This document shows positions 1 to 13,227 of a stretch of 20,001 nucleotides of DNA, in pieces. The stretch spans positions 1 to 20,001 of the IMG/VR virus record IMGVR_UViG_3300025687_000447; one strand, written 5' to 3'. Position 1 is the first letter of the stretch. Every line of letters begins with the position of its first letter. This stretch comes from a virus. The notes below the pieces were generated by a model that worked only from the letters and a program-made list of their open reading frames with translations, did no database searches and had not been told where the DNA came from. A program made the position numbers and the translations under genes.

Positions 1-156
1 TTTCCGGAAAATCTTTTCCTTAGCTTTTTGAGCTTTGGTTTTAGCCCTCTTCATAGTGTCAGAAGAACCACGGGTCTCCTCACCGCTAGGGGCTTTTTTA
101 GCTTCACGATCTGCCGCAAATTTCTTCAACAGTTCGGCTGGCATACTTTTAGCCAT
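1..156 (-). CDS. Truncated Lys-rich hypothetical protein (N-terminal 52 residues)
   Basis: The 3' end of this gene lies outside the window. The frame opens with an ATG at 154-156 inside the sequence ATGGCTAA, so it overlaps the stop of the preceding glycosyltransferase by 8 bases, a typical coupled phage junction. The visible part begins MAKSMPAELLKKFAADREAK and is strongly basic and hydrophilic, with Lys/Ala-rich stretches towards the cut edge and no membrane segment. I do not recognise a family. Such compositions occur in small scaffold-like or DNA-associated phage proteins, but nothing here shows that. The evidence for it being a gene is the overlap, the shared strand and the open frame to the window edge. 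Confidence 0.7.
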   Translation of the reverse strand, partial: MAKSMPAELLKKFAADREAKKAPSGEETRGSSDTMKRAKTKAQKAKEKIFRK

Positions 157-964
157 CTGGAAGAAGGTACTTTTTGACTCTTTCCAGTTTAACCGCTTCC
201 TCGGGTAAATCCTCGATTGGGTACGTGGTAATTAAATGATCCTGGCGTCCTAACATGTCTGTACTACCTTCAACAGGCTCAAACTCCTCACAAAGTTTTT
301 GAACTTCAGGACGGTCCCAAATATAAGCTTCTGCGATTGACTTCAACTTAGTCAACCTTCTATCTGAGTCACCCATCCACGAAAAATGCCAACCAGCGTC
401 TCGTTTGCCTACATAGTGATTATTCTGTGTCGAACGCATAGACGATAACGTCCCGTAGTCTTTTAGCTGCTTTACTGTGCTTACAACGCCGCAACGCCAA
501 TCAAAAAGCTCACCAGTAGGTGATACTAATTGTCGGTCAGCCCTGCCGTAGTGCATCGACATCGACAAGCGCACCACTTTATCCTCGTGCTCTTTAACTG
601 CTTCTAGCACTTCTTCAAGCTTGCCGGGGTTAGCGATCTCGTCGCAATCTGAACAAATAAAAACATCATCATCATCCATCAAGTGGAGACCAACTCCAAG
701 CGCGTCTCGCTGTCCTCGCTCACGAACCCAAGGATCCGGAGCTTCTTCCATAGAAGGGAGCTCAACGTGCATAACTTGGATTTTATTTTCTGGAAGCCCA
801 AGCTCTCGAATCGTATCTAGACACGTAAATGGTTTGAGCTCGCCCGTTGCGTGCGTGCGATTAGCGTCAGTGATTAAAAATCCATCAACGTGGTTCTCTA
901 GAGTTCGAATACGAAGCTCTAGTAACTCACGCTCATTAAAGTATGTAAAGCAATCGAGAAGCAC
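149..964 (-). CDS. GT17-type glycosyltransferase
   Basis: The 271-residue protein resembles glycosyltransferase family 17, whose characterised members add N-acetylglucosamine to mannosyl glycans; phage and bacterial members have unknown substrates. Seen in the sequence are the N-terminal FTYFNERELLELRIRTLE block (residues 6-23), an ITDANRTHATG strand-loop (31-41), a WVRERGQRDAL segment (79-89) and the acidic DDDVFICSDCDEIANP motif (98-113), where D106-D109 would hold metal and nucleotide sugar. All of these follow the order seen in GT17. The start is GTG at 962-964: an in-frame TGA lies seven codons upstream, so no earlier ATG is possible. It has no membrane anchor and is probably cytoplasmic. 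It is the second glycosyltransferase downstream of the terminase on this strand. The specificity is not deducible. Confidence 0.85.
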   Translation of the reverse strand: MLLDCFTYFNERELLELRIRTLENHVDGFLITDANRTHATGELKPFTCLDTIRELGLPENKIQVMHVELPSMEEAPDPWVRERGQRDALGVGLHLMDDDDVFICSDCDEIANPGKLEEVLEAVKEHEDKVVRLSMSMHYGRADRQLVSPTGELFDWRCGVVSTVKQLKDYGTLSSMRSTQNNHYVGKRDAGWHFSWMGDSDRRLTKLKSIAEAYIWDRPEVQKLCEEFEPVEGSTDMLGRQDHLITTYPIEDLPEEAVKLERVKKYLLPDG

Positions 965-995
965 AGTGAACCCTGTGAGGTCTCACCATACTAAC

Positions 996-1289
996 TCAAT
1001 CTCGCTCCCGGAGATACTTCGACACTTTTTGTTTTGCTCGCATCAACGCGTTACCGTTTGATTGATCGAGAATCGTACCCTCATCAGTTTCTACCCCGTT
1101 GTACTGCTCATTCGGCGGCGCCGGAGCCTGTGGCTGAGGAGAATACCGATAGTCCATTTCTTCATCAGCCACGCCTTCTGCGAACGCATTACTAGAAGGT
1201 TGATTGGCTTTACGCTGCTCATCAGCAGCCTGCATGTTCATTTGGTATGCCTTTGCAAAACCAAAAGCAGCCTTCGCGTAGGGATCCAT
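996..1289 (-). CDS. Hypothetical protein, Gln/Pro/Ala-rich middle, charged tail
   Basis: This 97-residue protein starts at an ATG that shares its A with the stop of the upstream gene (TGATG), which implies translational coupling. It opens with a short amphipathic stretch containing KAAFGFAKAYQMNMQAADEQ, continues through a disordered Pro/Gln-rich middle (PQPQAPAPPNEQ) and ends in a basic helix (RAKQKVSKYLRERD). It has no cysteines, no membrane span and no family I recognise. Composition and position next to a small spike-base-like gene suggest a virion or assembly accessory, but this is inference. About 30 bases separate its stop from the GT17 start. Confidence 0.75.
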   Translation of the reverse strand: MDPYAKAAFGFAKAYQMNMQAADEQRKANQPSSNAFAEGVADEEMDYRYSPQPQAPAPPNEQYNGVETDEGTILDQSNGNALMRAKQKVSKYLRERD

Positions 1290-1573
1290 CAGTACAGTAC
1301 AAAAACGCCGTTTACGGAACCACTAATTAAAGCAGTGCAGGCAAGAGGAATTAAATCATTACCATCCAGGTTAACTGCAGTTGCGTGCTGACCCGGAGCA
1401 TCTGAAAGCTCAACAGTCAAGTAATCCTTACTACTCGACGTTTTAGCTTCAATAAAAATAGCTCTACAAGTAGGGAAGTTTTTACGACCCTGTGCAGGAG
1501 CCCAGCCGAATCCGCTCGCATAAGGCAGCATTGAAGTCTGCCCGTAAACGGAACCAAACGCGCGGATATCCAT
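1289..1573 (-). CDS. Small beta-rich protein resembling phage spike-base proteins
   Basis: The 94-residue protein is rich in predicted beta strands. Its second half (CRAIFIEAK at 36-44, YLTVELSD near 51-58, then NLDGNDLIPLACTALISGS and a terminal FVLY) has the layout of a short family in tailed phages and gene transfer agents, called spike base proteins: CRA-hydrophobic strand, a small loop, a LPL-type turn and a closing V-LY strand. The resemblance is by pattern only. The ATG start (1573) has no clear Shine-Dalgarno sequence nearby. The gene ends in a TGATG junction with the next gene. A tail-tip or host-contact role is inferred from this resemblance; a general beta-sandwich decoration protein is the alternative. 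Confidence 0.7.
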   Translation of the reverse strand: MDIRAFGSVYGQTSMLPYASGFGWAPAQGRKNFPTCRAIFIEAKTSSSKDYLTVELSDAPGQHATAVNLDGNDLIPLACTALISGSVNGVFVLY

Positions 1574-1602
1574 ATGTAAAGACTGTTTGTTTTATCCTAA
1601 CG

Positions 1603-1893
1603 CTAGGCGCCTTGCTTTTCCAAGTAAGTAATCAATCGGTCGAGGTACCAACGAGCTTTCTTCAGGTCTTCCGCGCCGTTCTTAAATTTTTCGCGAGAGA
1701 CGTATTTCAAAACGTTCATTTTACATCCACCACAAAACTCTTCAGAAGTTAGGCAGGACTCCATATAATCTATAGTCTCTATCGATCCCTGAGTGTAGTG
1801 TGTAGGATGGTTAACGGCATCATCCATTTGCTGCAAAGGCATTAGACCGAGTTCGTTAAGACTTTTTAGCTCTGTCTTATCAGAAGGAAGCAT
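1603..1893 (-). CDS. DUF3310 family protein
   Basis: This 96-residue protein has the hallmark DUF3310 blocks: NHPTHYTQGSIETIDYMES (residues 28-46), EEFCGGCKMNVLKYVSR (51-67) and EDLKKARWYLDRLI (75-88). The family is widespread in phages and is often labelled nucleotide kinase in databases, although its function is not established. The ATG at 1893 is preceded by GGAG at a suitable distance, so I keep the 27-residue N-terminal leader before the domain. It overlaps the upstream glycosyltransferase by 14 bases. Two in-frame ATGs further in could also serve as starts and would still include the whole domain. Its presence among sugar and packaging genes rather than replication genes is slightly unusual. 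Confidence 0.9.
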   Translation of the reverse strand: MLPSDKTELKSLNELGLMPLQQMDDAVNHPTHYTQGSIETIDYMESCLTSEEFCGGCKMNVLKYVSREKFKNGAEDLKKARWYLDRLITYLEKQGA

Positions 1894-2767
1894 AACCGAA
1901 CATCTCCGAAATATCTAAGACGGAGCCTAGCTTCCTTTCTAAATCCAAACTGTACTTAGTATCGCAGTGTTCTACTAACCCACAGGGGGCTATCTGCAGT
2001 TTTTTATTTTCTTGTATTACAGGGACGACACGGCGGTGCTCTTGCCCAGGTAGCAAATTTTCAAACGCCAGACCCATAGAACTTCTGTCAGCCAGCGGCC
2101 AGCAACGAAACTGGGTAAGGTCAAAACTCTTTATAGGGTCAAAACTTTGAGAGGTTATATACTTCTCCGCCATCTCCTGATCCAGAATCATCATCCCCAT
2201 ATAAGGATTTCCTAAAGAGACGAATCCTACAAAGTCGTCTAACGGTGTCAGATAAGACTCAACACGATACGGTCGACCTCCCCAAACATCGCGCGTAGGT
2301 GCATTAAGCTGCCAAACTCGATGGTTGTCGAAAGGAATTAATCTGGACTCATAAGACTCATATCTACAAAAACCGGGCTCTAAATTTAAAGCTCTCAACT
2401 TATCTTTGTACAAGTACCAGTAAATAAAGTTCTCACTTGTGAATACCATATCGTTCTCTGTATATACATAAAAGTCATAATAATTCTGACAAACAGCTTC
2501 ATAGAGAAGACTCTTGTGAGCCCAAGTAAGAGCGTAACCCTCATAAGATTCAGGAGCAACAATAATATTTAAAGCATTAAAGGTAACATTAGGCTCCAAC
2601 AAATCTTTTAAAAGATCTTTGTCACCTTTGTGACCAGAATCTATATAAATAAAAACATCTTTAATTCCAGGCAGTTCCTCGTACCCACGCAGGGTTTTAA
2701 GTAGCTGATCAAACCTAGAAAGAGGATCATGAGCCGTAACAAAAACTAAGAACGTAAAATCTTTCAT
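1880..2767 (-). CDS. Glycosyltransferase, GT-A fold
   Basis: This 295-residue protein begins with FTFLVFVTAHDPLSRFDQLL (4-23), the usual first strand and helix of a nucleotide-sugar-binding GT-A domain. A run of alternating strands follows, then a YVYTENDMVFT segment (100-110), where E104-D106 sit where GT-A enzymes keep their DxD-like metal site. The C-terminal part is rich in aromatic residues and Arg (WQLNAPTRDVWGGRPYRVES) and may form the acceptor site. It has no signal peptide or membrane span. The start overlaps the terminase stop (TGATG), so it is probably translated from the same message. The donor and acceptor sugars cannot be read from the sequence, and the family assignment is by fold motifs only. 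Confidence 0.75.
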   Translation of the reverse strand: MKDFTFLVFVTAHDPLSRFDQLLKTLRGYEELPGIKDVFIYIDSGHKGDKDLLKDLLEPNVTFNALNIIVAPESYEGYALTWAHKSLLYEAVCQNYYDFYVYTENDMVFTSENFIYWYLYKDKLRALNLEPGFCRYESYESRLIPFDNHRVWQLNAPTRDVWGGRPYRVESYLTPLDDFVGFVSLGNPYMGMMILDQEMAEKYITSQSFDPIKSFDLTQFRCWPLADRSSMGLAFENLLPGQEHRRVVPVIQENKKLQIAPCGLVEHCDTKYSLDLERKLGSVLDISEMFGYASF

Positions 2768-4290
2768 CAGTACTCCATCTCGAAATTACCCCGGCGTTGA
2801 AGGAAACACACTAGGTGCGTATATGCGTCTAAAAGATCGTCGTGAGAGGTCGCTCCTATATTAATCAGCTGATCAAAAAGAGCATCAAATTTGCGATAGC
2901 GGTTAAAAATAACTTTTTTATTCTCCAGCAGGCCTAGCGTTCCTCTGAAACGAGCGATCTTATCTCCACGGAAGCCCTTAACCTCATGGATGTGGAGATT
3001 TCCAAGGCCCCACTCATCCAACATCACGCGCCTTAGGTCTGCCGCTAGTGATGCTTGGTATGCGACTGACTCCACCACTAGCGAACAGGTCGAATAAGTA
3101 GGGAAATATTTACCGTCGTTATCTTCTTGTAAGATGCCCCACTCAATAAGCATCTTGCACAACAGATCAATCTTTTCGAGATTACCTATAGAACGCACTT
3201 GATGAGCGTCAATAATATAGTATTTATCTTTTAATCGACCGCCCAAGACAAACGCCGTGTAATCTGACGTTTCGTTTTTGCTAGCGGATAAGTCAATACC
3301 AACAGCTAGGCTATCAAACTCTGTGACGACGTCCCCTTTAACGAGTAGGTCAGGTGAGAGGACTAAGTCAGAAGTCATAACTGGCTGTTGCTGATACTGG
3401 AAAGCAAAAGCAACTGGATCTAATTCTTTCTGACCTAACAGGTAGTCAACGGACCACTGCTCAGGCCAATAGCTAATCGGTTCACCATCGTTGTCATAAG
3501 TTAAAGCTTCTTGCTGTACCTGTTTCCACCCTTTATCAGGGACAAACATCGTTTTATGAATGTCGAGTGGGTGGAACCGAGTACCCAAGCAGATAGCTCG
3601 ACCACCTTCAAAAATAATCGGAGCAATAACAGAGCTCCAGTTATTATTCATCTCCTCCCTAATGGTTGGATTTTTAATATCAGTACTAGATTTAATAGGG
3701 TCATCTACAATCACAAGGTGTGCACGCTTCGACGTGATAGAGCCTCTAAGACCTGCAGCACGTAGAGTAAATTCTTCATCGCCCACACGGCTGATACCTG
3801 CGTAATCAAAATCGATACTCCAGCCAATATCAGACTGCATACCGGACCTCAATTGGACCTTCGGAAATATCTTCCGATAAGTTGATGAGTCGATAATTTG
3901 CTTAATAATTCGACTTTTGGGAATGGCTGTGGCGATGTTGTATGAACAATAAATAATCTGAAGAGGGAGACCAGCCGTAGTGTGCCTCCCGATAATCCAG
4001 GCCGTGAACATATTGAGCACTGTACTCTTGGCGCTACCTCTAGGCGCTAGAATATCTAGATTTGGTCCAGCTATATCCAATAAATACCTGTTACTCTCTC
4101 CAGTAATTAAGTGTTTATGCCATTCCAGCATGTGCGTAGCTGGGGCTTTGTCCATAATCGTACAAAAAGTATGGAAGTCATCAGCCGCTCTTAAAAATAT
4201 ATTGTCAATCACAGAACTTTCTGAGTCTATGGCTTTAGCTGCACGCAGTTTTAAAGCACGACGATACGCAAATGTTTCTCTACTCGGCAT
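2767..4290 (-). CDS. terL: Terminase large subunit (ATPase-nuclease packaging motor)
   Basis: This 507-residue protein drives DNA into the prohead and cuts the concatemer. Seen directly are a Walker A motif APRGSAKST (82-90), a Walker B motif LVIVDDP (192-198), a TRFHPLDIH motif (237-245) typical of the coupling region, and a C-terminal RNase H-type nuclease with acidic residues D333 (AVGIDLSAS), E407 (LVVESVAYQ) and D484/D485 (HDDLLDAY). The length is normal for the family and both active sites look intact. The start is ATG at 4290, 48 bases from a divergent gene. The stop overlaps the next glycosyltransferase (TGATG). The likely small subunit is not directly upstream; a plus-strand sugar cassette separates them. 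Confidence 0.97.
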   Translation of the reverse strand: MPSRETFAYRRALKLRAAKAIDSESSVIDNIFLRAADDFHTFCTIMDKAPATHMLEWHKHLITGESNRYLLDIAGPNLDILAPRGSAKSTVLNMFTAWIIGRHTTAGLPLQIIYCSYNIATAIPKSRIIKQIIDSSTYRKIFPKVQLRSGMQSDIGWSIDFDYAGISRVGDEEFTLRAAGLRGSITSKRAHLVIVDDPIKSSTDIKNPTIREEMNNNWSSVIAPIIFEGGRAICLGTRFHPLDIHKTMFVPDKGWKQVQQEALTYDNDGEPISYWPEQWSVDYLLGQKELDPVAFAFQYQQQPVMTSDLVLSPDLLVKGDVVTEFDSLAVGIDLSASKNETSDYTAFVLGGRLKDKYYIIDAHQVRSIGNLEKIDLLCKMLIEWGILQEDNDGKYFPTYSTCSLVVESVAYQASLAADLRRVMLDEWGLGNLHIHEVKGFRGDKIARFRGTLGLLENKKVIFNRYRKFDALFDQLINIGATSHDDLLDAYTHLVCFLQRRGNFEMEY

Positions 4291-4338
4291 GTTCTTTGAA
4301 AAACTGTCTGTATACTGTTAGCAAGATTCTACCGCCAA
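4291..4338. promoter_or_regulatory. Divergent intergenic region with possible back-to-back promoters
   Basis: Forty-eight bases separate the divergently read terminase and GT4 genes, so both must start transcription here or rely on read-through. The palindrome GTATAC at 4310-4315 gives a TATACT -10-like hexamer (4311-4316) reading towards the GT4 gene and a TATACA hexamer reading towards the terminase. A TTGAAA lies at 4296-4301, but only nine bases from TATACT, too close for a standard -35. No Shine-Dalgarno sequence is visible before the GT4 ATG. The promoter call is tentative. Confidence 0.35.
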
Positions 4339-5511
4339 ATGGCAAAAATTCTCTGGTACGGTGACATTCTCTCGAACACAGGTTTTGCTAGAGTTACACA
4401 CAGCATCCTAGAGCATCTATCTCGCACAAACGAAGTTGTAGCCTTTGGTATTAATTACACCGGAGACCCTCACGATCTACCGTTTAAGGTATACCCAGCT
4501 GGAGCTCAAAATCCCTCAGACCGTTTCGGTATCGGGAGACTGCCACGGGTAGTTGAGCAAGAAAAGCCGGATTTTGTGATTTGTCTCAACGACATTTGGG
4601 TTGTTAACCAAGTGTGGGAGCGAATCCATCTCCTCAAAGACTCTTTAAAATTTAAATTTATTGCATACTTTCCAGTTGATTCTAACTACTACATGAGCTC
4701 TATGCTCTCATATATGAAAGACTGGGATTTTGCCATCACATTTTCAATTGAGCAAGCTCAGCGTCTTCTGATGCAGGGTGTGCAACCAAAGCTTCTTGGT
4801 GTAGTCCCCCACGGCTTAGACCAAGGGAAGTTCTACCCGATTGATCGAGCAGTTGCGCGTAAAGCACTAAGGCTACCCGAGGATAAATTCATCGTTCTTA
4901 ACGCCAATCGAAACCAACCTAGGAAACAGATAGACCTAACAATCAAAGCATTTGCCGAATTCGCCGTAGGTAAACCCGATACTCAGCTTTACCTGCACAT
5001 GAGCGAAAAAGATCTTGGTTGGGACGTTCGAGCTATCTTCGACGCCGAGATGAAGAGAAGAAATCTCGAATCAGATAATCGTTTAATTATGACTACAAAT
5101 AATATCGACTACACTAACGCCCCTTCCGATGAATTACTAAATAAGATATATAACGCGTGTGATGTAGGTATTAACACTGCAAACGGAGAAGGGTGGGGAT
5201 TGGTTTCCTTTGAGCACGCTTCCTGTCGAAAACCACTTGTTCTGCCTAACCACACCTCGTTTAGCGATATCTGGAAGAGTAGCGCTCTCTTAGCAGATAT
5301 CGCAGCTTGGGTCTACGACAAGGATCTCAGTGTCGAGAGAGGCATCGTAGATGTAAAAGATATGGCAGCCATGCTCACTAAGTTGTATGAGGATAAATCT
5401 TTCTACGACGACATAGCTGATTCTTGTTTCAAAGTCACACAAAACCCCGCTTACCGCTGGGATCGAATTTCTGAAGCCTTTAACAAAGCCATGGAGGAGC
5501 TGAGCAAGTGA
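4339..5511 (+). CDS. GT4 family glycosyltransferase
   Basis: This 390-residue retaining glycosyltransferase has a GT-B layout. The N-terminal domain has ILWYGDILSNTGFARVTHSIL (4-24), where the Gly-rich loop and following helix contact the acceptor side. The hinge has VPHGLDQGKFYP (156-167), and the second domain shows the donor-phosphate patch LNANRNQPRKQIDLTIKAF (187-205) and the motif GEGWGLVSFEHASCRKP (283-299), where E284 and E292 match the EX7E pair of GT4 enzymes. All core residues appear present, so activity is likely. It has no membrane segment. It overlaps the next gene by four bases (GTGA), forming a plus-strand pair in a minus-strand region. The sugar specificity is unknown; a nucleotide-hexose donor is expected from the family. 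Confidence 0.9.
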   Translation: MAKILWYGDILSNTGFARVTHSILEHLSRTNEVVAFGINYTGDPHDLPFKVYPAGAQNPSDRFGIGRLPRVVEQEKPDFVICLNDIWVVNQVWERIHLLKDSLKFKFIAYFPVDSNYYMSSMLSYMKDWDFAITFSIEQAQRLLMQGVQPKLLGVVPHGLDQGKFYPIDRAVARKALRLPEDKFIVLNANRNQPRKQIDLTIKAFAEFAVGKPDTQLYLHMSEKDLGWDVRAIFDAEMKRRNLESDNRLIMTTNNIDYTNAPSDELLNKIYNACDVGINTANGEGWGLVSFEHASCRKPLVLPNHTSFSDIWKSSALLADIAAWVYDKDLSVERGIVDVKDMAAMLTKLYEDKSFYDDIADSCFKVTQNPAYRWDRISEAFNKAMEELSK

Positions 5512-6593
5512 CACAATTTCATCGCTATCGCACTTACAACAATCAAGTTGTTAAACGAGCTTTTGTTCCATCTAAATCAGGGTTTCCTTCTGTCTTTGAT
5601 CAAGCACACGACTTAGGTGGAACTTTTACAAAAATAACGTCTGGTTTACCGGAAAACAGCTTTGCTAATTTCAGCCCCTGTGTCATTCAACACAGAGGGT
5701 CGACGCTAATAGCGTGGCGATCTCAACCTGAACACTTTGTGTTTAGGCACGATATGAAATATTTTTACTACAACAACACGCCTACTGATATCTGGATCGG
5801 TCAGCTATTGAAGGATGACACCATCATCGCCCCAAGAAAACTTATCGACAAGCCACACAGACTCAGCTACGAAGATCCAAGGATATTTATCTCGCCTGAC
5901 GACAACTTGCTGTGTCAATTTGTCACTAGCACTTACGCGACAAAGTGGGATTCAACAAACCACAAAATGCTTAAAACCCCGAAAGTCTGCACAGGTGTAG
6001 TAAATGAATTCGGACTGCTTATCGACAAGTTTTATCCGCCAATTGGAGAAAACTACACAGAAGGTAAGTCAGAAAAGAACTGGTGCTTTTTTGCGGATAA
6101 CGAACACCTGCGTCTTCTTTATTCAACACAGCCGATAGTTATAAAAACTCCAGGGGATGCAGACAAAGTAATTGATTCGACATGCCTGAAGTCAGTAACA
6201 GGTGACCACCCTACATTTAATTCAACTGCTCCAATTCTTGTCGAGGACGAGTGGCTGGTGTTTTACCACTGGAAATTTATGTGCCGTGAGCTCGATAAGC
6301 GGCCTTATTTGATGTACTCACTCGGTGCTTACTGCTTAGACAAAAACTTAACCAAAGTTACACGAATGATGAATGAGCCTCTTTTTGTGGGTTCGACAAA
6401 CGATGATCTAGTCACATGGACGGATCCAGTTGGGAACGACGTATCGAATCAACCCGCGTGCATCCTTCCGTTTGGTTGCTTTGTCGATGACGATGAATTG
6501 ACTATGGCATTAGGTGTTAATGACTATTACATGGGTGTATTTAAAACACCTGTGTTAAATGTGTTATCATTAATGGAACCCGTTAACCAGTAA
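5508..6593 (+). CDS. GH130-like five-bladed beta-propeller protein
   Basis: This 361-residue protein resembles glycoside hydrolase family 130 and related propeller proteins, which phosphorolyse or hydrolyse mannosides. The best evidence is SYEDPRIFISP (120-130), matching the GxEDPRI-type motif that carries the proposed catalytic Asp (here D123), and SEKNWCFFADNEHLRLLYS (188-206), matching the E-KNW-F block. PTFNSTAPILVEDEWLVFYHW further on resembles another propeller blade. The start is GTG at 5508, in a GTGA overlap with the GT4 gene, so the two are cotranslated. It could act as a mannoside phosphorylase, a glycan-binding propeller, or an uncharacterised glycosyltransferase partner. No signal peptide is visible, so it probably acts in the cytoplasm or on the virion. 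Confidence 0.7.
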   Translation: MTQFHRYRTYNNQVVKRAFVPSKSGFPSVFDQAHDLGGTFTKITSGLPENSFANFSPCVIQHRGSTLIAWRSQPEHFVFRHDMKYFYYNNTPTDIWIGQLLKDDTIIAPRKLIDKPHRLSYEDPRIFISPDDNLLCQFVTSTYATKWDSTNHKMLKTPKVCTGVVNEFGLLIDKFYPPIGENYTEGKSEKNWCFFADNEHLRLLYSTQPIVIKTPGDADKVIDSTCLKSVTGDHPTFNSTAPILVEDEWLVFYHWKFMCRELDKRPYLMYSLGAYCLDKNLTKVTRMMNEPLFVGSTNDDLVTWTDPVGNDVSNQPACILPFGCFVDDDELTMALGVNDYYMGVFKTPVLNVLSLMEPVNQ

Positions 6594-6613: not shown

Positions 6614-6633
6614 CACGAAGCCAAAACGGGCTA

Positions 6634-6657: not shown

Positions 6658-6663
6658 GCAAAC

Positions 6664-7194
6664 TTAACTCTTTTCTTCCTTCTCAATCGTGCTCCAAACG
6701 ACGATGGAAGCGTCTTCAAGAAGTGAATAAACAGCGGGAACATCTTCAAAACTATTCATTAGTTCCCGCATACACCTATCAGCTCCAGCAAGAAGAAGAC
6801 CTCGTCGGTCGAGTCCGTCAGTTAACTGACGTACAGCTTGGATGTGCGAACGAATTTCTTTTTGAAGAACAGCAATCTTGGTAGCGGCTGTAGCGTGGTC
6901 CAACATACCCGTAAGGGTCATCTGCCTTACGTTATGCAAATCCGTCTTCATCGCATCAATTTCGATGAGAAGGATCTTTCTTAAATCCTCTTTGGGGTAC
7001 TTTTCGTTAACCCACGCTGTTAGGTCGGCAATAGATCCGTTATAACTAGGCTTTAAAAACCGAGCGTAAAGATAAGCCTCTATGTCACTTGTTGCGTTCT
7101 TCGCATAATGCTTAAACGCATCTTGTTGAGATTTATCTAGTGAACTCAACCAACCGCCAACAGTTGTAGAGTCTCCAATCGTGGATTTAATCAC
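6664..7194 (-). CDS. Hypothetical helical protein, possible terminase small subunit
   Basis: The 176-residue protein is predicted mostly helical. The N-terminal part (LDKSQQDAFKHYAKNATSD then GSIADLTAWVNEKYPKEDL, roughly residues 19-71) could form a helix-turn-helix-like DNA-binding unit. The middle (KTDLHNVRQMTLTGMLDHAT and IAVLQKEIRSHIQAVRQLTD) looks like the oligomerisation helices of small terminase subunits. These are impressions, not a recognised family match. The context supports it: it is the last gene of the minus-strand virion cluster, and the large subunit would be the next gene on this strand were the plus-strand cassette absent. The start is GTG in a GTGA overlap with the preceding gene. 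A different DNA-packaging or head-completion role is possible. Confidence 0.6.
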   Translation of the reverse strand: MIKSTIGDSTTVGGWLSSLDKSQQDAFKHYAKNATSDIEAYLYARFLKPSYNGSIADLTAWVNEKYPKEDLRKILLIEIDAMKTDLHNVRQMTLTGMLDHATAATKIAVLQKEIRSHIQAVRQLTDGLDRRGLLLAGADRCMRELMNSFEDVPAVYSLLEDASIVVWSTIEKEEKS

Positions 7195-7970
7195 GCAAAC
7201 ATCCGAGTACCAGCAAGAGCCTGGTTAGCACCGAATTGTTTCAGAGCAAGCTGACCTTTGGTAGCAGCCCTGGTTCGAGCTAAATCACCAAGCGTCTTCA
7301 CTTTATCTAACTGAGCAGCGTTTTCAAACTGTTGTGCACCCAATGCCAATAAGCCTTCATTCTGGGCACGAGTCTGATAAACCTGGTTGAGAGTTTCCGC
7401 CTGGTTGCGGGCAACATCACCACGGAGTTGTTCTTGATAGGCTTTAACACCTAGATTTGTCATGCCAAGCTGATTAGCAAGTTGGTTTTCGCCTGCTAAT
7501 GCAGCAGATCCTGCCTGAGCGAGAAGATTAGGAGCTTGCAACTCGGTGGCTAAGCGTGCCTGGCCTAAGTTGTACAGAGTATCTAAACCCTTACCAGCGC
7601 CGTAAGCGGCCACAGAAGACTGAAGCGTGGCGTCCTTCTGAGCACGCTGTAGTGCCTCAGCCAAAATGCTTAACTGAGAAGAAGCCTTGGTTGTCGCTTC
7701 TTGGCCGATGGCGCCTGCAAGAGCCCCCTGCATCAGGCTTAAGCCTTGATACGCAGCAGTTAAGGGGTTGTTCTGGGCGGCCATCTGAGCCGCAAACTGT
7801 TGATAGACGTCGCCTGGCTGAGCACCGCTACTACTGCTGCCGCTACTACTGCTGCCGCCACCACCGAATAAACTTCCGAGTCCGCCAACTACGGCCCCAA
7901 TGCCAGTACCCCAAGGTCCAAAGGCAGACCCTGCGGCCGCTCCTGTTGCAGCACCACCTAAAAAGTTCAT
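7191..7970 (-). CDS. Probable virion protein with Gly-zipper N terminus (ejection-protein-like)
   Basis: This 259-residue protein opens with a hydrophobic Gly/Ala-rich segment, roughly residues 1-38 (MNFLGGAATGAAAGSAFGPW and GTGIGAVVGGLGSLFGG), able to insert in a membrane as a glycine zipper. A Gly/Ser linker with repeats of SSSSG follows, then about 200 residues of Ala/Gln/Leu-rich helix (QLSILAEALQRAQKDATLQS). This plan resembles small internal or ejection proteins of tailed phages such as T7 gp14, by architecture only. It contains an NNPLTAAY motif near residue 67, related to the NPLT motif in the two upstream genes. The ATG start lies two bases after the upstream stop. Confidence 0.8.
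   Translation of the reverse strand: MNFLGGAATGAAAGSAFGPWGTGIGAVVGGLGSLFGGGGSSSSGSSSSGAQPGDVYQQFAAQMAAQNNPLTAAYQGLSLMQGALAGAIGQEATTKASSQLSILAEALQRAQKDATLQSSVAAYGAGKGLDTLYNLGQARLATELQAPNLLAQAGSAALAGENQLANQLGMTNLGVKAYQEQLRGDVARNQAETLNQVYQTRAQNEGLLALGAQQFENAAQLDKVKTLGDLARTRAATKGQLALKQFGANQALAGTRMFA
7826..7855. repeat. Two exact 15-base tandem copies encoding a Ser/Gly linker
   Basis: The unit CGCTACTACTGCTGC occurs twice back to back (7826-7840 and 7841-7855). On the minus strand it encodes the SSSSG linker of the ejection-like protein. It keeps the frame, so copy-number change would only alter linker length. Confidence 0.9.
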
Positions 7971-7972
7971 GA

Positions 7973-8611
7973 TCAGCTAATCACAGAAGAGGGCATTCCA
8001 AAGCCGGAGCGACCCTGACCGGCAAGGGACGCACCAGCTTGAAGAACATTGGGGTTGGGGACGCCAGCTGCATAAGCCAGGTTCATCATGCCAAGACCCA
8101 TTGCGGTATCTCGGTTAATCTGAGCCTGAGTGATCTTCTGCCACGCGTCGATGGTCTGGAGCTCGATCTGACGCGCAGTATTTTCGCGCATCTTCTCCAT
8201 ACCAGCCTGAGCAGCAATATCAGATTGCTGGCGATAGGTCTCGATATCGATTCGAGCTTGTTCTGGGTAAAACTCCCGAGCAGCCTGGGCCTCAGCTTGT
8301 TGTGCTGCGCGAGTAGCCTGAGCTTCTTGAGCTTGGAGCTTCATCAAAGCTTCGATAAGCGCAGGCAGATCTGCACCCGAAGCTCCGCCGGGAGGAATTG
8401 GTTGTTGTTTAGGGCTGTTATCCGCCTTTGACTCGGAACTGGTTGAAGTCGGAGGTGGAGGAGTTTGATTAGCCGAAGGCTTGCTAGAAGTAGGTTTACC
8501 TAAGACGTCCTTTTCTTTGTTGCCGCCTAGCAGAATCGGCGCAATAGGCGCGACAGGCGCGGTCAACGGGTTGCCGGACAAAATAAGCTCTAAGAAATCA
8601 GTAGCATTCAT
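7973..8611 (-). CDS. Probable virion protein, Pro/Ser-rich N terminus and Ala/Gln helices
   Basis: This 212-residue protein begins MNATDFLELILSGNPLTAPV; the NPLTAPV motif is nearly the same as NPLTSPV in the next upstream gene. A disordered stretch rich in Pro, Ser and Lys (NQTPPPPTSTSSESK) spans roughly residues 35-80. A long Ala/Gln/Glu-rich helical part follows (LMKLQAQEAQATRAAQQAEA and IDIETYRQQSDIAAQ), which may form a coiled coil. The C-terminus is Gly/Ala-rich. No family is recognised. The TGATG junction and position in a run of similar proteins argue for a virion or assembly role. The ATG start at 8611 is fixed by the overlap. Confidence 0.8.
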   Translation of the reverse strand: MNATDFLELILSGNPLTAPVAPIAPILLGGNKEKDVLGKPTSSKPSANQTPPPPTSTSSESKADNSPKQQPIPPGGASGADLPALIEALMKLQAQEAQATRAAQQAEAQAAREFYPEQARIDIETYRQQSDIAAQAGMEKMRENTARQIELQTIDAWQKITQAQINRDTAMGLGMMNLAYAAGVPNPNVLQAGASLAGQGRSGFGMPSSVIS

Positions 8612-9258
8612 CAGAAACCCCTCCCGATTTCACTAATAATACTGCCGTAATCGGGACGATTAAGGGAACTAGCAATGCCTTGTTGGACTACACCACCGAG
8701 GCTCTGTGCTCCGCCTTGAATAGCACCGCTAAGTGCTTGCGAACCCTGACCAGCTGCCTGCGACAAAGCAGACTGAATAGTACCTTGTTGCTTCAGTTGC
8801 TCGATTGCGTACTCACGAGCACCGGCCTCAGCAGCGGAACGACGAAGCTGATCTTCCCGCTCACGAATGATCTCATCCGCATCCAAAGGAGGCATACCTA
8901 ATGCCCGGCGCTTAAAGTTCTCATTATTTACATACTGCTGAATGTCGCGAACATCCTGCAGAGTAATCATGAATTTGCTGCCGGATCCTCCTTGAGTTTC
9001 AGGAGGAGCAAACGCCCCCGTGGCAATTTCGGAACCAGACTTTATACCGCCAGCAATAATATTTCCGACGACTTCAGCAAGAAGGGCAGCCCCTAAGGCT
9101 TTAACACCTCCGGCAGCAGCGGGTGCGGCTGCAGCAGCGAGAGGAACAGGCATTTGAGTGCTAGCGGCGAAGGAAGAGGTTGGAACTAAGCGAGTGGCAG
9201 CGCCTGTTACCGGGCTTGTTAAGGGGTTTGGTTGCTGAATAAACGAGTAACGGCTCAT
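8611..9258 (-). CDS. Probable virion protein with hydrophobic Ala/Gly segment
   Basis: This 215-residue protein starts MSRYSFIQQPNPLTSPVTGA and contains a hydrophobic Ala/Gly segment (about residues 38-75) including ALGAALLAEVVGNIIAGGI that could insert in a membrane. A charged helical part (IIREREDQLRRSAAEAGARE) follows, and the C-terminus is Gln/Gly/Ala-rich with imperfect repeats (QGSQALSGAIQGGAQSLGG). The plan is close to its neighbours: short N-terminal NPLT motif, insertable segment, Gln/Ala helices. I do not recognise a named family. The start ATG shares its A with the preceding stop. An ejection or tail-interior role is inferred from composition. Confidence 0.8.
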   Translation of the reverse strand: MSRYSFIQQPNPLTSPVTGAATRLVPTSSFAASTQMPVPLAAAAAPAAAGGVKALGAALLAEVVGNIIAGGIKSGSEIATGAFAPPETQGGSGSKFMITLQDVRDIQQYVNNENFKRRALGMPPLDADEIIREREDQLRRSAAEAGAREYAIEQLKQQGTIQSALSQAAGQGSQALSGAIQGGAQSLGGVVQQGIASSLNRPDYGSIISEIGRGF

Positions 9259-9497
9259 CAGAAACCTCCTGGATTGTCGTACTTGGTGCCGCTAAGAGGC
9301 TTCTTCATTAATTTTAGAGTATCCGCCTGATTATTTACATCCATACCACGCTGCATTTGCTGAGCTGAAGGCAGCGCAGAAGTCTGTGGAAAGTTACTTT
9401 CCATATAAAGACGCATGAATGTATTTGCGTCTAACTCAGGAGACAGCTTTCGAACATCGCGTTCGCGTAACTGCTGTTGACGTGCGTTAAGAGTCAT
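9258..9497 (-). CDS. Small hypothetical protein
   Basis: The 79-residue protein is hydrophilic, with a basic N-terminus (MTLNARQQQLRERDVRKLSP) and a Met/Gln-rich middle (LPSAQQMQRGMDVNNQADTL). It has no cysteines and no membrane segment. It is embedded between two coupled genes by TGATG overlaps at both ends, which is the main evidence that it is translated. It is probably a structural or assembly accessory of the surrounding cluster; no family is recognised. Confidence 0.75.
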   Translation of the reverse strand: MTLNARQQQLRERDVRKLSPELDANTFMRLYMESNFPQTSALPSAQQMQRGMDVNNQADTLKLMKKPLSGTKYDNPGGF

Positions 9498-9994
9498 CAG
9501 CTTAAAGGCTGGAAGGCGCGAGAAGGCTCGATTCCATTTGAGGAAGGAGCGTTAAGAACGCTGTAATTAGAACCTAAATTCGGGGTGTCGTACTCAAGAG
9601 GACGTTGAGACGAAAGACGATCAGACTCTTCTTCGCCTTGATCTGAAAGCTGTTCAATCAAAGCCATAATAATTTGATACTCTTCAGGCTCTAAAGACTG
9701 CAGCAGCTCCATCAGATAAGCATCTTCCTGAGGACGCTCAGGTTCGGTCCGCAGACGAGCTGCTAACTGAGCCTTCTGCATCGGAGCAGTGTTATTTGGG
9801 TACGCGTTCAGGGAACGAGTAGCTCCTGTGTAAAAACCATCTCCTTCCATACCTGGCATAGGAGGAAGAGCCTGTCCAAACTGCCGAATCACTTGAGCAG
9901 TTGCGGGGGTGGCGGCAGCCATCTCAGCCGGCGTTTGAGGCACCGGAAGCCCGAGGATACGAGCAGCTAATTCGTAATCGGCTTTAGAAAACAC
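9497..9994 (-). CDS. Hypothetical acidic protein of the virion cluster
   Basis: This 165-residue protein begins with FSKADYELAARILGLPVP, a helical opening, followed by Ala/Pro-rich and then acidic Gln/Glu-rich helices (LMELLQSLEPEEYQIIMALI and EQLSDQGEEESDR). It ends in a Ser/Asn-rich tail. The start is a GTG at 9992-9994 lying inside the end of the regulator gene, an 11-base overlap without its own ribosome-binding sequence, so translation is probably coupled to the regulator. I do not recognise the family. A scaffold-like role would fit an acidic helical protein but is only a guess. Confidence 0.75.
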   Translation of the reverse strand: MFSKADYELAARILGLPVPQTPAEMAAATPATAQVIRQFGQALPPMPGMEGDGFYTGATRSLNAYPNNTAPMQKAQLAARLRTEPERPQEDAYLMELLQSLEPEEYQIIMALIEQLSDQGEEESDRLSSQRPLEYDTPNLGSNYSVLNAPSSNGIEPSRAFQPLS

Positions 9995-10256
9995 CGGACA
10001 CCACCACGGCTGATTGTTCTATATTACCGCGAATGTTTAAGATATCGCCGGGCAGACACTCTAAAGTAATACAAAGCTTTTCTAGTACATCAGGAGAAGG
10101 TATGTATTCGGGGTCGCTATAAATTTTTCTTGTTGTCGTAGGCGACAAATTCGCTCGCTTACTCAGCGCAAAAGACGATAAGTGTTTACTGTCTAAAAGC
10201 GACCTGAGCGTATTAACAAGCTTACCTGAGGCTGTATGTGAGGAGTAAAAAGGCAC
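9984..10256 (-). CDS. XRE-type helix-turn-helix regulator
   Basis: This 90-residue protein carries a Cro/C1-type DNA-binding domain: LVNTLRSLLDSKHLSSFALS (13-32) gives the first helices, KRANLSPTTTRKIYSDPEY (33-51) the recognition region, and SPDVLEKLCITLECLPGDIL (54-73) the closing helices. The sequence is close to the compact XRE regulators of cyanobacteria and Firmicutes. The start is GTG at 10256, with AAGGA only about two bases away, a tight spacing. An ATAATA (TATTAT on this strand, 10279-10284) could be a -10 element but no good -35 is seen. Its place inside a virion gene run, directly in front of five structural candidates, suggests it may control that operon. Confidence 0.85.
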   Translation of the reverse strand: MPFYSSHTASGKLVNTLRSLLDSKHLSSFALSKRANLSPTTTRKIYSDPEYIPSPDVLEKLCITLECLPGDILNIRGNIEQSAVVVSGVF

Positions 10257-10302
10257 GTTCCTTACACCCGATCAGCACATAATACTTCGACGCTTCGCAA
10301 AG

Positions 10303-11073
10303 TTAAAAGCCTAGGTGTTTACGGCGGACAAACTCCAAATCATATGTAGTGAAACTGGAAGGAAACTCAGGGACATTAAAAGGTGTTTTATGTGTAGGGT
10401 CATCGACGTGCGCCTGCCAGCCTTCGCCCCACTTCATGTGCATATATCGCTTATTGAGCTCATGAGCGACATGAATCGATCGCGCTATAGACGGTTCAGA
10501 CCGCCAAGTCTGACTTCCGTCTGAGTAATCCTTCTTAGTTCCGTGGTAATAGCCGTGGCCTAAAGTTAAAACCCTTTTTACGTCGTCATGTATAAAGCGA
10601 ACCCCGTAATCTAAATCTTCGCAGTATCCAGGGTATAAATTTTCATCAAACAAACCATACTTTTTAACCATCCAATCCTTTAGAAGAAAAATATCCCAAC
10701 CGCCCCCAGAACCATGAACAGTACCTACCTCGCTATCCTGTGCTTCCTCATTCATTTCCTGTAAAAAACCAGGCTCGAACATAACATCATGGTTTGATAT
10801 AACCCAGTATGGTGCTTTCATAAAGCACTTAATAATCAAATTCCACGCTCCAGAGCAACCCAAGTTGGCTGGCATGTGCGTCACATGAACCTTTTTTACA
10901 AACGGATTGGACAAGTTACGGACACTTTCGACCGCTTCCGTAATCTGCCCACGGCCGTTGTTATTTACAACAAAAAAATTATCTACTGGGTAGTCGATGC
11001 TCATGAAGAGCCTGTGCAACCAGTATGGATTATTGACGATTGCAGTACCGAGAACGGGGATTGAGTCCGCCAT
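10303..11073 (-). CDS. GT2 family glycosyltransferase
   Basis: This 256-residue protein has the GT2 order of motifs: a first strand (VLGTAIVNNPYWLHRLFMSI, 7-26), the FFVVNNNGRG strand (33-42), the donor-binding NLGCSGAWN (70-78), a metal-site strand VISNHDVMFEP (91-101) with D96 in the DxD position, and FDENLYPGYCEDLDYGVR (142-159), the acceptor and base motif seen in rhamnosyl- and related transferases. It has no membrane anchor. The ATG at 11073 has AGGAAG very close upstream. It is separated from the regulator gene by 46 bases. It adds a sugar to an unknown acceptor; it is the fourth glycosyltransferase in the window and belongs to a different family from the others. Confidence 0.9.
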   Translation of the reverse strand: MADSIPVLGTAIVNNPYWLHRLFMSIDYPVDNFFVVNNNGRGQITEAVESVRNLSNPFVKKVHVTHMPANLGCSGAWNLIIKCFMKAPYWVISNHDVMFEPGFLQEMNEEAQDSEVGTVHGSGGGWDIFLLKDWMVKKYGLFDENLYPGYCEDLDYGVRFIHDDVKRVLTLGHGYYHGTKKDYSDGSQTWRSEPSIARSIHVAHELNKRYMHMKWGEGWQAHVDDPTHKTPFNVPEFPSSFTTYDLEFVRRKHLGF

Positions 11074-11100
11074 CTTCCTATAGCTTATGTCAGTATACTA

Positions 11101-11532
11101 TCAGAATAATTCCTTAAATAAATTGCATCCTTTAGCTTCTTCAGTCTGAGCTTCAGGGATATCAAACGAGCACCCATAAGGTGTCAAATGAGCACAATCA
11201 CAACAAGGTATTTCTGAGACCTCTTTAACGACTACAGGAGCAACTGTAGTTGCTGAAAGCTCAGGAGTCATTTCAAGCACGGCATTTTTAATGAGAGCAA
11301 ACTTAGAGCGGAGCATACGAAGTTCTTCGTAACTCTCAGCAGAAATCTCGTGCATAGTCTGTTTGTAGTCACAACTCAAGCACTTGTAACGTCGTCGTGT
11401 TCCTTCAAAAGTCTTTCTACTCTCAATGACTTTGAACTTATGGCTACTGCAGGCCGGACACTCTTTTGTTGCGTGGTAAGCATAAAATCCGCTCAGTTGA
11501 GTCTCAGTGTGCTTTTTACGCTGTGCCGCCAT
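11101..11532 (-). CDS. Zinc-ribbon protein with second Cys cluster
   Basis: I set the start at ATG 11532, since the longer open frame would read through the tRNA-Leu. The 143-residue protein has an N-terminal zinc ribbon: CPAC (25-28), FKVIESRKTFEGTRRRYK (33-50) and CLSC (51-54). This block closely follows the zinc ribbon of the ribonucleotide reductase repressor NrdR, including the VI-SR and RRR features. The NrdR ATP-cone does not follow. Instead there is a helical middle and a C-terminal group PCCDCAHLTPYGCSFDIPEA with C110, C111, C113, C121 and C136, probably a second metal site. The role is unknown; nucleic acid binding is the natural guess from the ribbon. Confidence 0.85.
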   Translation of the reverse strand: MAAQRKKHTETQLSGFYAYHATKECPACSSHKFKVIESRKTFEGTRRRYKCLSCDYKQTMHEISAESYEELRMLRSKFALIKNAVLEMTPELSATTVAPVVVKEVSEIPCCDCAHLTPYGCSFDIPEAQTEEAKGCNLFKELF

Positions 11533-11547
11533 GTTGAAATAATTAAG

Positions 11548-11629
11548 TGCTGCAGGTGGGACTCGAACCCACACGAGATGAACTCAGCGCATTTTAAGTG
11601 CGCAACGTCTACCATTCCGCCACTGCAGC
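11548..11629 (-). tRNA. tRNA-Leu (anticodon TAA)
   Basis: The 82-base class II tRNA folds with acceptor stem GCTGCAG/CTGCAGC (11623-11629 with 11549-11555), an anticodon stem GCGCA/TGCGC around the loop CTTAAAA, a variable arm GAG-TTCAT-CTC and a T arm GTGGG-TTCGAGT-CCCAC. The anticodon TAA reads UUA, which is Leu. The loop keeps T33 and the structural bases look normal. No CCA is encoded; the discriminator base is A. It lies between two coding genes on the same strand and must be cut out of their transcript or have its own promoter. Confidence 0.95.
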
Positions 11630-11652
11630 GGCGTACGGACTGTAGCAGGTAA

Positions 11653-11868
11653 TTAGTCGAGTGTGCGGCCGCCCCCGGATTTTTTCCAAGTTTGATCGCC
11701 GGGCAGTGGTTCTGTGCCGTACTCAAACGTATCGTAGTCATCCTCATTACGAGGATCTTCCACGAACGCATAATGAGTCGTATTATCCTCGATAAACGAC
11801 TGAAGATTGGACAAAGCTTGGTCCAGAAGCGCCTGCTCTTCTGGACTCAGTTGTTTCGACTCTTCCAT
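11653..11868 (-). CDS. Small acidic hypothetical protein
   Basis: This 71-residue protein has a very good ribosome-binding sequence: GGAGG sits four bases before its ATG, the strongest Shine-Dalgarno in the window. It begins MEESKQLSPEEQALLDQALS, a helical and acidic opening, and continues with many Asp/Glu and Tyr residues (VEDPRNEDDYDTFEYGTEPL) before a Lys/Gly-rich tail. There is no recognised domain, cysteine or membrane segment. It precedes the tRNA-Leu on the same strand by 23 bases. The strong initiation signal suggests abundant expression, perhaps late in infection; this is inference. Confidence 0.85.
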   Translation of the reverse strand: MEESKQLSPEEQALLDQALSNLQSFIEDNTTHYAFVEDPRNEDDYDTFEYGTEPLPGDQTWKKSGGGRTLD

Positions 11869-11892
11869 GGTTCCTCCGGGTCCCCTACCAAA

Positions 11893-12183
11893 TTAAAGGT
11901 TTTCGTAGACTCGGAACACCGCGTTCACACTCTTCTTACAAGCAACGTGATCGGTGCGGCCATAGTCGCGGTACTGAGCAGCCGTGCACTCCTGCACTCT
12001 CTGATTGAACTCGGCCTCACGATCCAAAGACTTTGTGAGGTTCCCAAACAGCCACAACCCGTAAGCCAAAGCCGGAGTGAACAACAAAATAAAAGGAAGA
12101 AATTGAAAAATCTGGTGCAGTGCAACGCCCCAGACAAGGTGGGAAGTCTTGGCGTCTAGATTGATGTTGATGTTTTTAGTCAT
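11893..12183 (-). CDS. Small single-pass membrane protein with Cys pair
   Basis: I start at ATG 12183 because AGGTGA sits five bases upstream; a GTG nine bases earlier lacks such a site. The 96-residue product has a short polar N-terminus (MTKNININLDAKTSHLVWGV), a hydrophobic span of roughly residues 20-50 (FLPFILLFTPALAYGLWLFG), and a charged C-terminal half with two Cys residues (VQECTAAQYRDYG and VACKKSV). The Cys spacing would allow a disulphide if that half is outside the cytoplasm. It is the first gene of the long minus-strand run and faces the plus-strand methyltransferase across 92 bases. A lysis role, such as spanin or holin helper, is possible but not shown. Confidence 0.8.
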   Translation of the reverse strand: MTKNININLDAKTSHLVWGVALHQIFQFLPFILLFTPALAYGLWLFGNLTKSLDREAEFNQRVQECTAAQYRDYGRTDHVACKKSVNAVFRVYENL

Positions 12184-12275
12184 GTAAGTCACCTAGTGAC
12201 GTAGTCATCATACACAGCTCCCCTACCCCTGTCAAGAAATTGCTGCTACGATGCTGACACACCGAGAATCTGGCG

Positions 12276-12989
12276 ATGACCACGGTAGCCAAACCTAGCT
12301 TTAAGGATTTAATGGCTCAGCTGGGCGACGAAACAGCAGCCGTAGCCCCCGTGGTGCAGATTCAAGGCAAAAAGAAACTTGACGACCGCTATACGTTCAA
12401 CCAAACCTGGTTTGACGCCTTACTGAACACCGATATGGTGCTTTGCACGCGTGATGAAGCCAAGGATATTCGGCTGAACCCCGCTGAAAAGCGTCAAATC
12501 GTCGAAATCGGAGTTTACGAAGGCGCCTCTAGCTGTTTTTGGTCCGATTTTTACCTCTCACACCCAGAATCTCGTTTAATTTCCATCGATCCGTTCACTG
12601 GAAGCTCTGAGCACCACGAAAAACCAGAAAATTACCCGGAATTAGCGAAAATTGAGCTAACAGCCCGTGGAAATATCGCAAAATCCGATAACGCCGAGAA
12701 AATTGAGATCCTTAAAGGTTGTAGCTGGGACGTTTTTCCTGAATTAAACCGCCGAAACGGAGGGGACCCTTGGATTGACGTCCTCTATATCGATGGTGCT
12801 CACGACCCAGCTTCGGTAGCTCGCGACACAACCCTGTACGTCCCAATGGTTAAAAGTGGGGGCGTCGTAATTTTCGATGACTATGGTCACCCCGACGTTC
12901 AGCGCGGTGTCGACGGAGCTCTCAACGCTTTCGCTTCGATGAAAACAGCAATCTTCACCGGTTGGCAGCTCGCTTGCCTGGTCGCATGA
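12276..12989 (+). CDS. Class I SAM-dependent methyltransferase
   Basis: This 237-residue protein has the Rossmann methyltransferase motifs of the Methyltransf_24 type: motif I VEIGVYEGASS (76-86) binds S-adenosylmethionine, LISIDPF (101-107) carries the acidic residue for the ribose, DVLYIDGAHDPASVARD (168-184) is the characteristic IDG-H block, and GGVVIFDDYGHPDVQRGVDGAL (195-216) follows. This group includes enzymes that methylate sugars and O-antigen or glycan precursors, and also cephalosporin- and macrocin-type enzymes. An N-terminal extension of about 40 residues precedes the fold. No clear Shine-Dalgarno precedes the ATG. It overlaps the next gene by four bases (ATGA). The acceptor is unknown; in this context a glycan is plausible. 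Confidence 0.85.
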   Translation: MTTVAKPSFKDLMAQLGDETAAVAPVVQIQGKKKLDDRYTFNQTWFDALLNTDMVLCTRDEAKDIRLNPAEKRQIVEIGVYEGASSCFWSDFYLSHPESRLISIDPFTGSSEHHEKPENYPELAKIELTARGNIAKSDNAEKIEILKGCSWDVFPELNRRNGGDPWIDVLYIDGAHDPASVARDTTLYVPMVKSGGVVIFDDYGHPDVQRGVDGALNAFASMKTAIFTGWQLACLVA

Positions 12990-13183: not shown

Positions 13184-13227
13184 TTTTAGAGCTAAGATTA
13201 ATCAATCGGCTAAAGAAGCTGTTCGTA

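Follow-up and report, generated by a model that had tools for sequence, protein, structure and literature searches.

Six genes for sugar-handling enzymes are grouped around the terminase large subunit gene (TerL) in the window, the whole 20,001-nucleotide stretch of viral DNA analyzed here (IMG/VR record IMGVR_UViG_3300025687_000447), and the set is unbroken in a widespread lineage related to Synechococcus phage S-EIV1 (Table 1). The window comes from an uncultured lineage that is sister to that phage. The six enzymes are probably a virion-glycan set, and we suggest with moderate confidence that they decorate a protein of the phage's own virion, most likely one of the head, with a glycan that is methylated and probably branched. 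Virion glycan sets are already known as a kind; the most unusual member here is the GH130-like protein.

Table 1. Sugar-handling genes and neighboring features of the window.
Feature	Coordinates	Strand	Evidence or remarks
GT17 family glycosyltransferase, 271 aa	149..964	-	PF04724 51.5 bits (cut-off 26); start codon as listed mechanically
97-aa protein, same gene string as GT17	996..1289	-	conserved in place among relatives (37-91% identical); nothing in Pfam or PHROG
94-aa protein, same gene string as GT17	1289..1573	-	conserved in place among relatives (46-96% identical); nothing in Pfam or PHROG
DUF3310 protein	1603..1893	-	PF11753 E 7e-22; overlaps GTA gene end
GTA, GT-A-fold glycosyltransferase, 295 aa	1880..2767	-	AlphaFold model; start overlaps TerL stop (TGATG)
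Terminase large subunit (TerL)	2767..4290	-	phrog_38 E 2.3e-74; 54% identical to S-EIV1 TerL
Divergent TerL/GT4 spacer, 48 bases, promoter-like	4291..4338	.	palindromic GTATAC core
GT4 family (GT-B) glycosyltransferase, 390 aa	4339..5511	+	phrog_2170 E 2.3e-49; PF00534 38.1 bits (cut-off 26.4)
GH130-like five-bladed propeller, predicted, 361 aa	5508..6593	+	fold match; start overlaps GT4 stop (GTGA)
Protein conserved with S-EIV1	6664..7194	-	41% identity; adjoins TerL in S-EIV1 too
Probable virion protein	7191..7970	-	weakly similar to tail-associated lysin phrog_1047, E 2.1e-8
GT2 family glycosyltransferase, 256 aa	10303..11073	-	PF00535 29.1 bits (cut-off 23.3); phrog_29879 E 1.3e-24
GTATAC promoter-like copy upstream of GT2	11088..11099	-	exact AGTATACTGACA
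Methyltransf_24 SAM-dependent methyltransferase (MT), 237 aa	12276..12989	+	PF13578 71.5 bits (cut-off 26.3)
Virion structural protein, context for the set	17895..19124	-	phrog_1645 E 1.1e-122

Each of the six proteins has an open reading frame at the position given in Table 1. Profile searches and fold predictions bore out the enzyme identities and coordinates proposed in an earlier note on this DNA, with the GH130-like protein scoring below the Pfam cut-off. Motifs that the note had described as complete are invariant in family alignments of all six: S105-D-x-D-E in GT17 (20 relatives), E284-x7-E292 in GT4, NHD and ED in GT2, E104-N-D in GTA, motif I (EIGVYEGAS) and DDY in the methyltransferase, and the GH130-like motif discussed below. 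For GTA, which matches nothing in Pfam, the AlphaFold model (pLDDT 90.4) adopts a GT-A fold, with a best Z of 11.1 over 204 residues and many GT-A enzymes tied. The four glycosyltransferases had been called unrelated, which holds at the level of families but not of folds, as GT17, GTA and GT2 (GTA being the one modeled) probably all share the GT-A fold. Profile searches gave chlorovirus NY2A B736L, a protein of unknown function as of a 2017 review, as the best solved match of GT4 (E 3.9e-25), and found no solved relative from the sequence profiles of GTA, GH130, GT2 or MT. The GT2 protein is 31% identical to the GT2 of Pontimonas phage phiPsal1 and 36% to that of the uncultured phage L269. Two weak structure matches of GT17, to a lipase and a designed protein, were read as chance.

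We file the propeller protein as GH130-like rather than GH130 because its PF04041 score (23.0 bits) is just below the curated cut-off of 26. Its AlphaFold model (pLDDT 79.4, with residues 1-24 poor) predicts a five-bladed propeller closest to GH130 structures: the match to GH130 phosphorylases has a Z of 24.6 over 273 residues (rmsd 3.2), and the next structural group is the GH43 propellers, at a Z of about 18. The predicted fold is thus common to the GH130 mannoside phosphorylases (Z 24.6) and to GT108 enzymes (Leishmania MPT-1 and MPT-2; Z 19.8), the latter being GDP-Man-dependent mannosyltransferases on a GH130-type fold. With only 10-18% identity to these structures, the likeness consists of the fold and an ED-x-R motif. 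E122, D123 and R125 of this motif are invariant in 28 relatives; we take it to be the motif expected of GH130, in which D123 is the putative catalytic Asp. Sequence searches found no solved relative at E values up to 10, and a pattern search of 84,980 prokaryote species, a method that detects close relatives only, returned none.

The genes had been placed at six separate loci; there are five, as GT4 and GH130 share 4 bases and form one pair. GTA and GT17 lie between TerL and the portal gene, on the same strand and in overlapping genes, and in the near-complete relative G001 the portal gene is 0.2 kb downstream of GT17. The backbone is S-EIV1-like in TerL (Table 1), MCP (71% identity) and portal (42%, via G001), TerL being the one of the three inside the window. 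According to the earlier note, carriage of these genes by relatives independently of one another would have refuted its proposal. Instead, among 80 relatives the set is complete and syntenic wherever the contig reaches: GT17 in 43/43, GTA in 55/55, GT4 in 46/46, GH130 in 35/35, GT2 in 20/20 and MT in 7/7. Seven long lineage records carry it unbroken except at contig ends; searches of 16 sister-group records turned up no GT17, GTA or GH130. Because the six genes are syntenic in every reachable relative and have dN/dS values of about 0.01-0.1 (where computable, with dS often saturated), their presence is not due to chance. Shared ancestry partly accounts for their co-occurrence inside the lineage.

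A virion acceptor is best backed by comparison with other phages. It is favored because GT4-containing sets with GT2, a methyltransferase or GT17 recur in head modules built on other capsid proteins. In Synechococcus phage S-CBS4 the order is portal, gp13, GT4 (41% identical), GT2 (26%), methyltransferase, protease and MCP, and in 33 of 34 IMG/VR loci the gene just before GT4 is portal or gp13, the remaining locus being cut off. That phage differs in its capsid and portal, its methyltransferase belongs to another Pfam family, and it gave no match to GT17, GTA or GH130. Phage phiPsal1, which has an actinobacterial host and yet another capsid, encodes MCP, GT4, methyltransferase, GT2 and neck in that order, and MCP directly precedes GT4 in all nine loci (9/9). 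GT4 and GT2 are likewise beside MCP in the uncultured relatives L269-L272; L269 and L272 show the order MCP, GT4, GT2, an intervening gene, GT17, an extra cytidylyltransferase (CTP_transf) and a gp6-like connector. A tblastn search of 50,697 phage records with GT17, GTA and GH130 found nothing. The window encodes glycosyltransferases with intact motifs, as expected of virion-glycosylating phages, and a supporting though not strictly defining trait, a set tied to head genes in independent phages, is also found, with S-EIV1 as the exception.

S-EIV1 shares the backbone of the lineage and a GT4 (40% identity), but its GT4 gene adjoins the primase gene, away from the head genes, and it has no match to GT17, GTA, GH130 or GT2. 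Its Methyltransf_24 protein is no detectable orthologue of MT, the two having no significant pairwise similarity. Head-gene placement is therefore not universal. The proposal in the earlier note that the phage glycosylates its own virion is partly supported by the unbroken set and the head-module recurrence, and counting against it are S-EIV1 and the three of six genes (GT4, GH130 and MT, on the plus strand) that lie opposite the head genes, the minus strand holding GT17, GTA, TerL and GT2; the virion acceptor is what we infer. Such placement is also not required for a virion-glycan function, since chlorovirus glycosyltransferase genes are expressed early (PMC5408694).

The same off-strand genes would suit a set that alters a glycan on the surface of the infected host, be it lipopolysaccharide or exopolysaccharide, perhaps to prevent superinfection or release progeny from debris. 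Combinations of glycosyltransferases and methyltransferases are, as is generally known, typical of O-antigen synthesis, and a Flavobacterium phage has a large sugar cluster away from its annotated head genes. We consider this rather unlikely, as similar sets in other phages sit within runs of portal, capsid and connector genes and the six enzymes come without a flippase or polymerase, neither of which was detected by Pfam in G001. None of the six has a 19-residue stretch with mean hydropathy above 1.2, that is, no obvious membrane segment by hydropathy windows, and by this measure they lack the flippase and membrane-anchored glycosyltransferases of Gtr-type serotype conversion. The earlier note likewise saw no membrane flippase.

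Nor did it see a base-modifying enzyme, which bears on whether these enzymes glycosylate the phage's DNA bases (hypermodified DNA). Several phage glycosyltransferases, GT-A types included, do so according to PMC12838424, and PHROG labels a relative of MT 'DNA methyltransferase'. We rejected that label as evidence of a DNA enzyme, as it spans a broad fold and the Pfam assignment is Methyltransf_24; MT also matches the TylF and rhamnosyl O-methyltransferase models. PF00303 (thymidylate synthase / pyrimidine hydroxymethylase type) was matched in 0/12 lineage or sister records, seven of them lineage, and in 9/14 controls, and no base oxygenase appears in the Pfam scans of G001. DNA as the acceptor is highly improbable.

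A role in host metabolism during infection, such as turnover of mannosides or a compatible solute in which the GH130-like protein would liberate mannose 1-phosphate, would fit the titles of matched structures, by which GH130 enzymes are mostly mannoside phosphorylases of carbohydrate breakdown, and the presence of mannosylglycerate synthase among the GT-A matches. It is improbable, leaving unexplained both the retention of four glycosyltransferases together with a methyltransferase and the similar head-module sets elsewhere.

For the virion glycan, assembly would take place in the cytoplasm of the probable cyanobacterial host, where at least one glycosyltransferase would start and lengthen the chain with sugars taken from the host's nucleotide sugars and GT2, GT17 and the GT-A enzyme would add more. 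A mannoside may be the substrate of the GH130-like protein, which would either trim mannose or add it, with mannose 1-phosphate or GDP-mannose as the donor, and the methyltransferase would finally cap a sugar hydroxyl, although Methyltransf_24 enzymes could also act on other small molecules. We infer the acceptor, sugars, linkages, order and timing in this scheme. No epimerase was detected in seven lineage records.

Precedents for such a pathway exist. Mycobacteriophages encode glycosyltransferases and are reported to bear glycans on capsid and tail tube subunits (Freeman et al. 2023, as cited in PMC12619734); in the present case the glycan is predicted from genes, and the set numbers six enzymes, among them a GH130-like protein and a methyltransferase. 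Chloroviruses (PBCV-1 A064R, A111/114R, A546L / NY2A B736L) also use mostly soluble, virus-encoded glycosyltransferases, with a homologous GT4, GT17 enzymes and a glycan-capping methyltransferase, but they are eukaryotic giant viruses with another capsid fold. The PBCV-1 protein A064R unites glycosyltransferases with a methyltransferase by which the capsid glycan is capped (PMC5408694, PMC7826918); neither account of this machinery includes a GH130-like protein.

More tentatively, and with appreciable doubt, tailed phages with unrelated capsids may share an exchangeable, GT4-anchored head-module glycan cassette, in which the GH130-scaffold protein here works synthetically, as a mannosyltransferase or phosphorylase, on the virion glycan. 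If so, a virus-encoded GH130-type enzyme would take part in capsid glycosylation, and abundant, largely uncultured, probable cyanophages would sugar-coat their particles with conserved enzymes of their own, as chloroviruses do in algae. The cassette would then be testable, with S-CBS4 and phiPsal1 as cultured stand-ins, for the role of a virion glycan in water, where candidate benefits are stability, less sticking to debris and protection from grazers.

A GTATAC promoter-like element accompanies part of the set. We rejected it as a shared promoter, as in the window it is exact only upstream of TerL/GT4 and GT2, weak before MT and absent before most minus-strand genes, and its count with two mismatches allowed is near chance; it is kept as a hint only. 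Of 81 loci, 71 have an exact AGTATACWGACA ahead of TerL, the TerL/GT4 spacer has a length of 46-52 in 58 loci, and the element recurs upstream of GT2 with at most two mismatches in 17 of 27 loci.

In this lineage the six genes are kept together. The window, a virus record of 20,001 bases, encodes a terminase large subunit (TerL) with 54% identity to that of Synechococcus phage S-EIV1, and close relatives are encoded on 332 IMG/VR stretches, of which we studied the best 80. Counting only loci long enough to include a gene's place, GT17 is present in 43/43, the GT-A fold protein (GTA) in 55/55, GT4 in 46/46, the GH130-like propeller in 35/35, GT2 in 20/20, and the methyltransferase (MT) in 7/7. 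GH130, GTA, GT17, and GT4 each occur in all seven long lineage records and GT2 and MT in six; the seventh, whose TerL lies near the record's end, has no match to these two. The earlier note had raised the possibility that relatives carry the genes independently. Instead, the set stays together wherever loci reach, and no loss was observed despite large divergence (identity as low as 62% for GT17 and 58% for GTA) among relatives that are not themselves independent. Across 16 sister-group records, some of them fragments whose absences are not all firm, GH130, GTA, and GT17 were unmatched, GT4 was found in 11, and GT2 and MT gave one weak match each, in G023. In this phage, genes for GT2, a C-methyltransferase, and a Methyltransf_24 protein also form a single string, which lies about 5 kb away from its GT4. 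Lineage member G007 has a tandem pair of GT17 genes, and in another, G006, a second, weaker Methyltransf_24 match adjoins GT2.

The family assignments proposed in the earlier note held up. GT17, GT4, GT2, and the methyltransferase exceed Pfam cut-offs, and fold prediction was applied to the two doubtful proteins. GTA has a predicted GT-A fold (Z 11.1) and is left without a family because many GT-A enzymes tie. The GH130-like protein scores slightly below its Pfam cut-off, and its model best matches GH130 mannoside phosphorylases (Z 24.6), ahead of GT108 mannosyltransferases (19.8) and GH43 (about 18). The motifs, which looked complete in that note, consist of residues invariant across the family alignments. 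Gene junctions are tight at TerL/GTA (TGATG) and GT4/GH130 (GTGA).

For GT4, tblastn gave matches in only 7 records of 50,697 phages. S-CBS4 shares GT4, GT2, and a methyltransferase with the window, there placed between portal and head genes (portal, gp13, GT4, GT2, methyltransferase, head protease, MCP, the major capsid protein). Pontimonas phage phiPsal1, added through the GT2 search, has GT4, MT, and GT2 between MCP and a neck protein. In Tetrasphaera phage TJE1, genes for a nucleotidyltransferase, an epimerase, an MT, and a GT4 precede terL and portal by about 3 kb; in Microcystis phage Mae-JY09, a GT and an epimerase come directly after MCP. Among IMG/VR loci, the gene immediately preceding GT4 is portal or gp13 in 33 of 34 of the S-CBS4 type (the exception is truncated) and MCP in 9/9 of the phiPsal1 type. 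Two uncultured loci, L269 and L272, share GT4, GT2, and GT17 with the window in a slot that also holds a cytidylyltransferase (MCP, GT4, GT2, a 182-aa protein, GT17, cytidylyltransferase, gp6-like connector); over the aligned parts, identity to the window's proteins is 36% for the L269 GT2 and 28% for the L269 GT17. At locus L257, the slot bounded by portal and protease contains GT4 along with a pair of further GT-like genes, a C-methyltransferase gene, and a Methyltransf_24 gene. Phages that differ in their capsids thus have, within the head module, a set anchored by GT4 whose partners are exchangeable, and this is the main reason why we favor a virion acceptor.

Glycosylation of phage DNA would call for an enzyme that appears to be lacking: PF00303 (thymidylate synthase/pyrimidine hydroxymethylase) was found in 0/12 records, with controls ringing, and Pfam scans of G001, an 86-kb relative, revealed no base oxygenase among the families they list. 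Remodeling of the host surface is possible, but neither flippase nor membrane anchor is in evidence, and a hydropathy scan found no obvious membrane segment in the six enzymes. The earlier note likewise saw no base-modifying enzyme and no membrane flippase.

The virion glycosylation proposed there is partly supported. The head-module sets of other phages speak for it; against it, GT4-GH130 and MT of the window lie on the other strand than the head genes, and the S-EIV1 GT4 adjoins primase, away from head genes. Chloroviruses offer parallels: the best solved relative of GT4 is NY2A B736L, GT17 genes are found in chloroviruses as well, and A064R of PBCV-1 unites two rhamnosyltransferases and a methyltransferase capping the capsid glycan (PMC5408694, PMC7826918). 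Chlorovirus glycosyltransferase genes are expressed early (PMC5408694), and therefore placement among head genes is no requirement. In mycobacteriophages, both capsids and tail tubes bear glycans, according to work cited in PMC12619734. On balance, the six enzymes are best interpreted as a virion-glycan set, and this interpretation is fairly likely. Because searches of the lineage detected no epimerase, the sugars would derive from host nucleotide sugars. The TerL-GT4 spacer is conserved (46-52 bases, palindromic GTATAC core), and a similar element occurs upstream of GT2, which hints at shared control but does not prove it. Systems of this kind are already known. What is new, as far as searched, is the presence of a GH130-like protein, a set of six genes that stays unbroken in an abundant lineage, and the repeated occurrence of GT4-anchored cassettes in head modules.

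In G001 the order is MCP, portal, GT17, GTA, TerL, GT4, GH130, virion-like genes, GT2, MT. Its MCP is 71% identical to an S-EIV1 ORF, and the MCPs of three lineage members share 97-99% identity. Kinship with S-EIV1 and a Kyanoviridae Gp96 match in G001 suggest that the host is probably a cyanobacterium. The S-EIV1 equivalent of the lineage's probable MCP gene is unannotated, and GenBank calls an opposite-strand ORF across it. The S-EIV1 TerL gene has 2541 bases versus 1524 in the window and its alignment falls into two pieces, which indicates that a large segment, perhaps an intein, is inserted in frame. Since the GH130 gene is matched, with overlap, at both ends of the G003 contig (85268 bases), this lineage record is probably a complete genome of ~85 kb, circular or terminally redundant. 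The listed start of one window ORF, set mechanically, overlaps the Leu tRNA, and the true start therefore probably lies later. Adjacent genes for a MoxR-type AAA ATPase and a von Willebrand factor A protein immediately precede the DNA polymerase A region in G001.

Coordinates of backbone features and additional genes
Feature	Record	Position	Strand
MCP	G001	4937-6052	
Portal	G001	7974-10199	
MoxR/von Willebrand factor A pair	G001	43443-46165 (L085 4443-7165)	
MCP-equivalent gene	S-EIV1, L082	26699-27850 (KJ410740 60859-62010)	
TerL gene	S-EIV1, L082	19920-22460	
tRNA-Leu (TAA)	window	11547-11629	-
tRNA-Ile (GAT)	window	17241-17315	-
ORF overlapping tRNA-Leu	window	11101-11574	
Tandem GT17 genes	G007 (L061 contig)	57634-59249	
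Second Methyltransf_24 match	G006	46719-47051	
GT2/C-methyltransferase/Methyltransf_24 string	G023 (L207)	11913-15095
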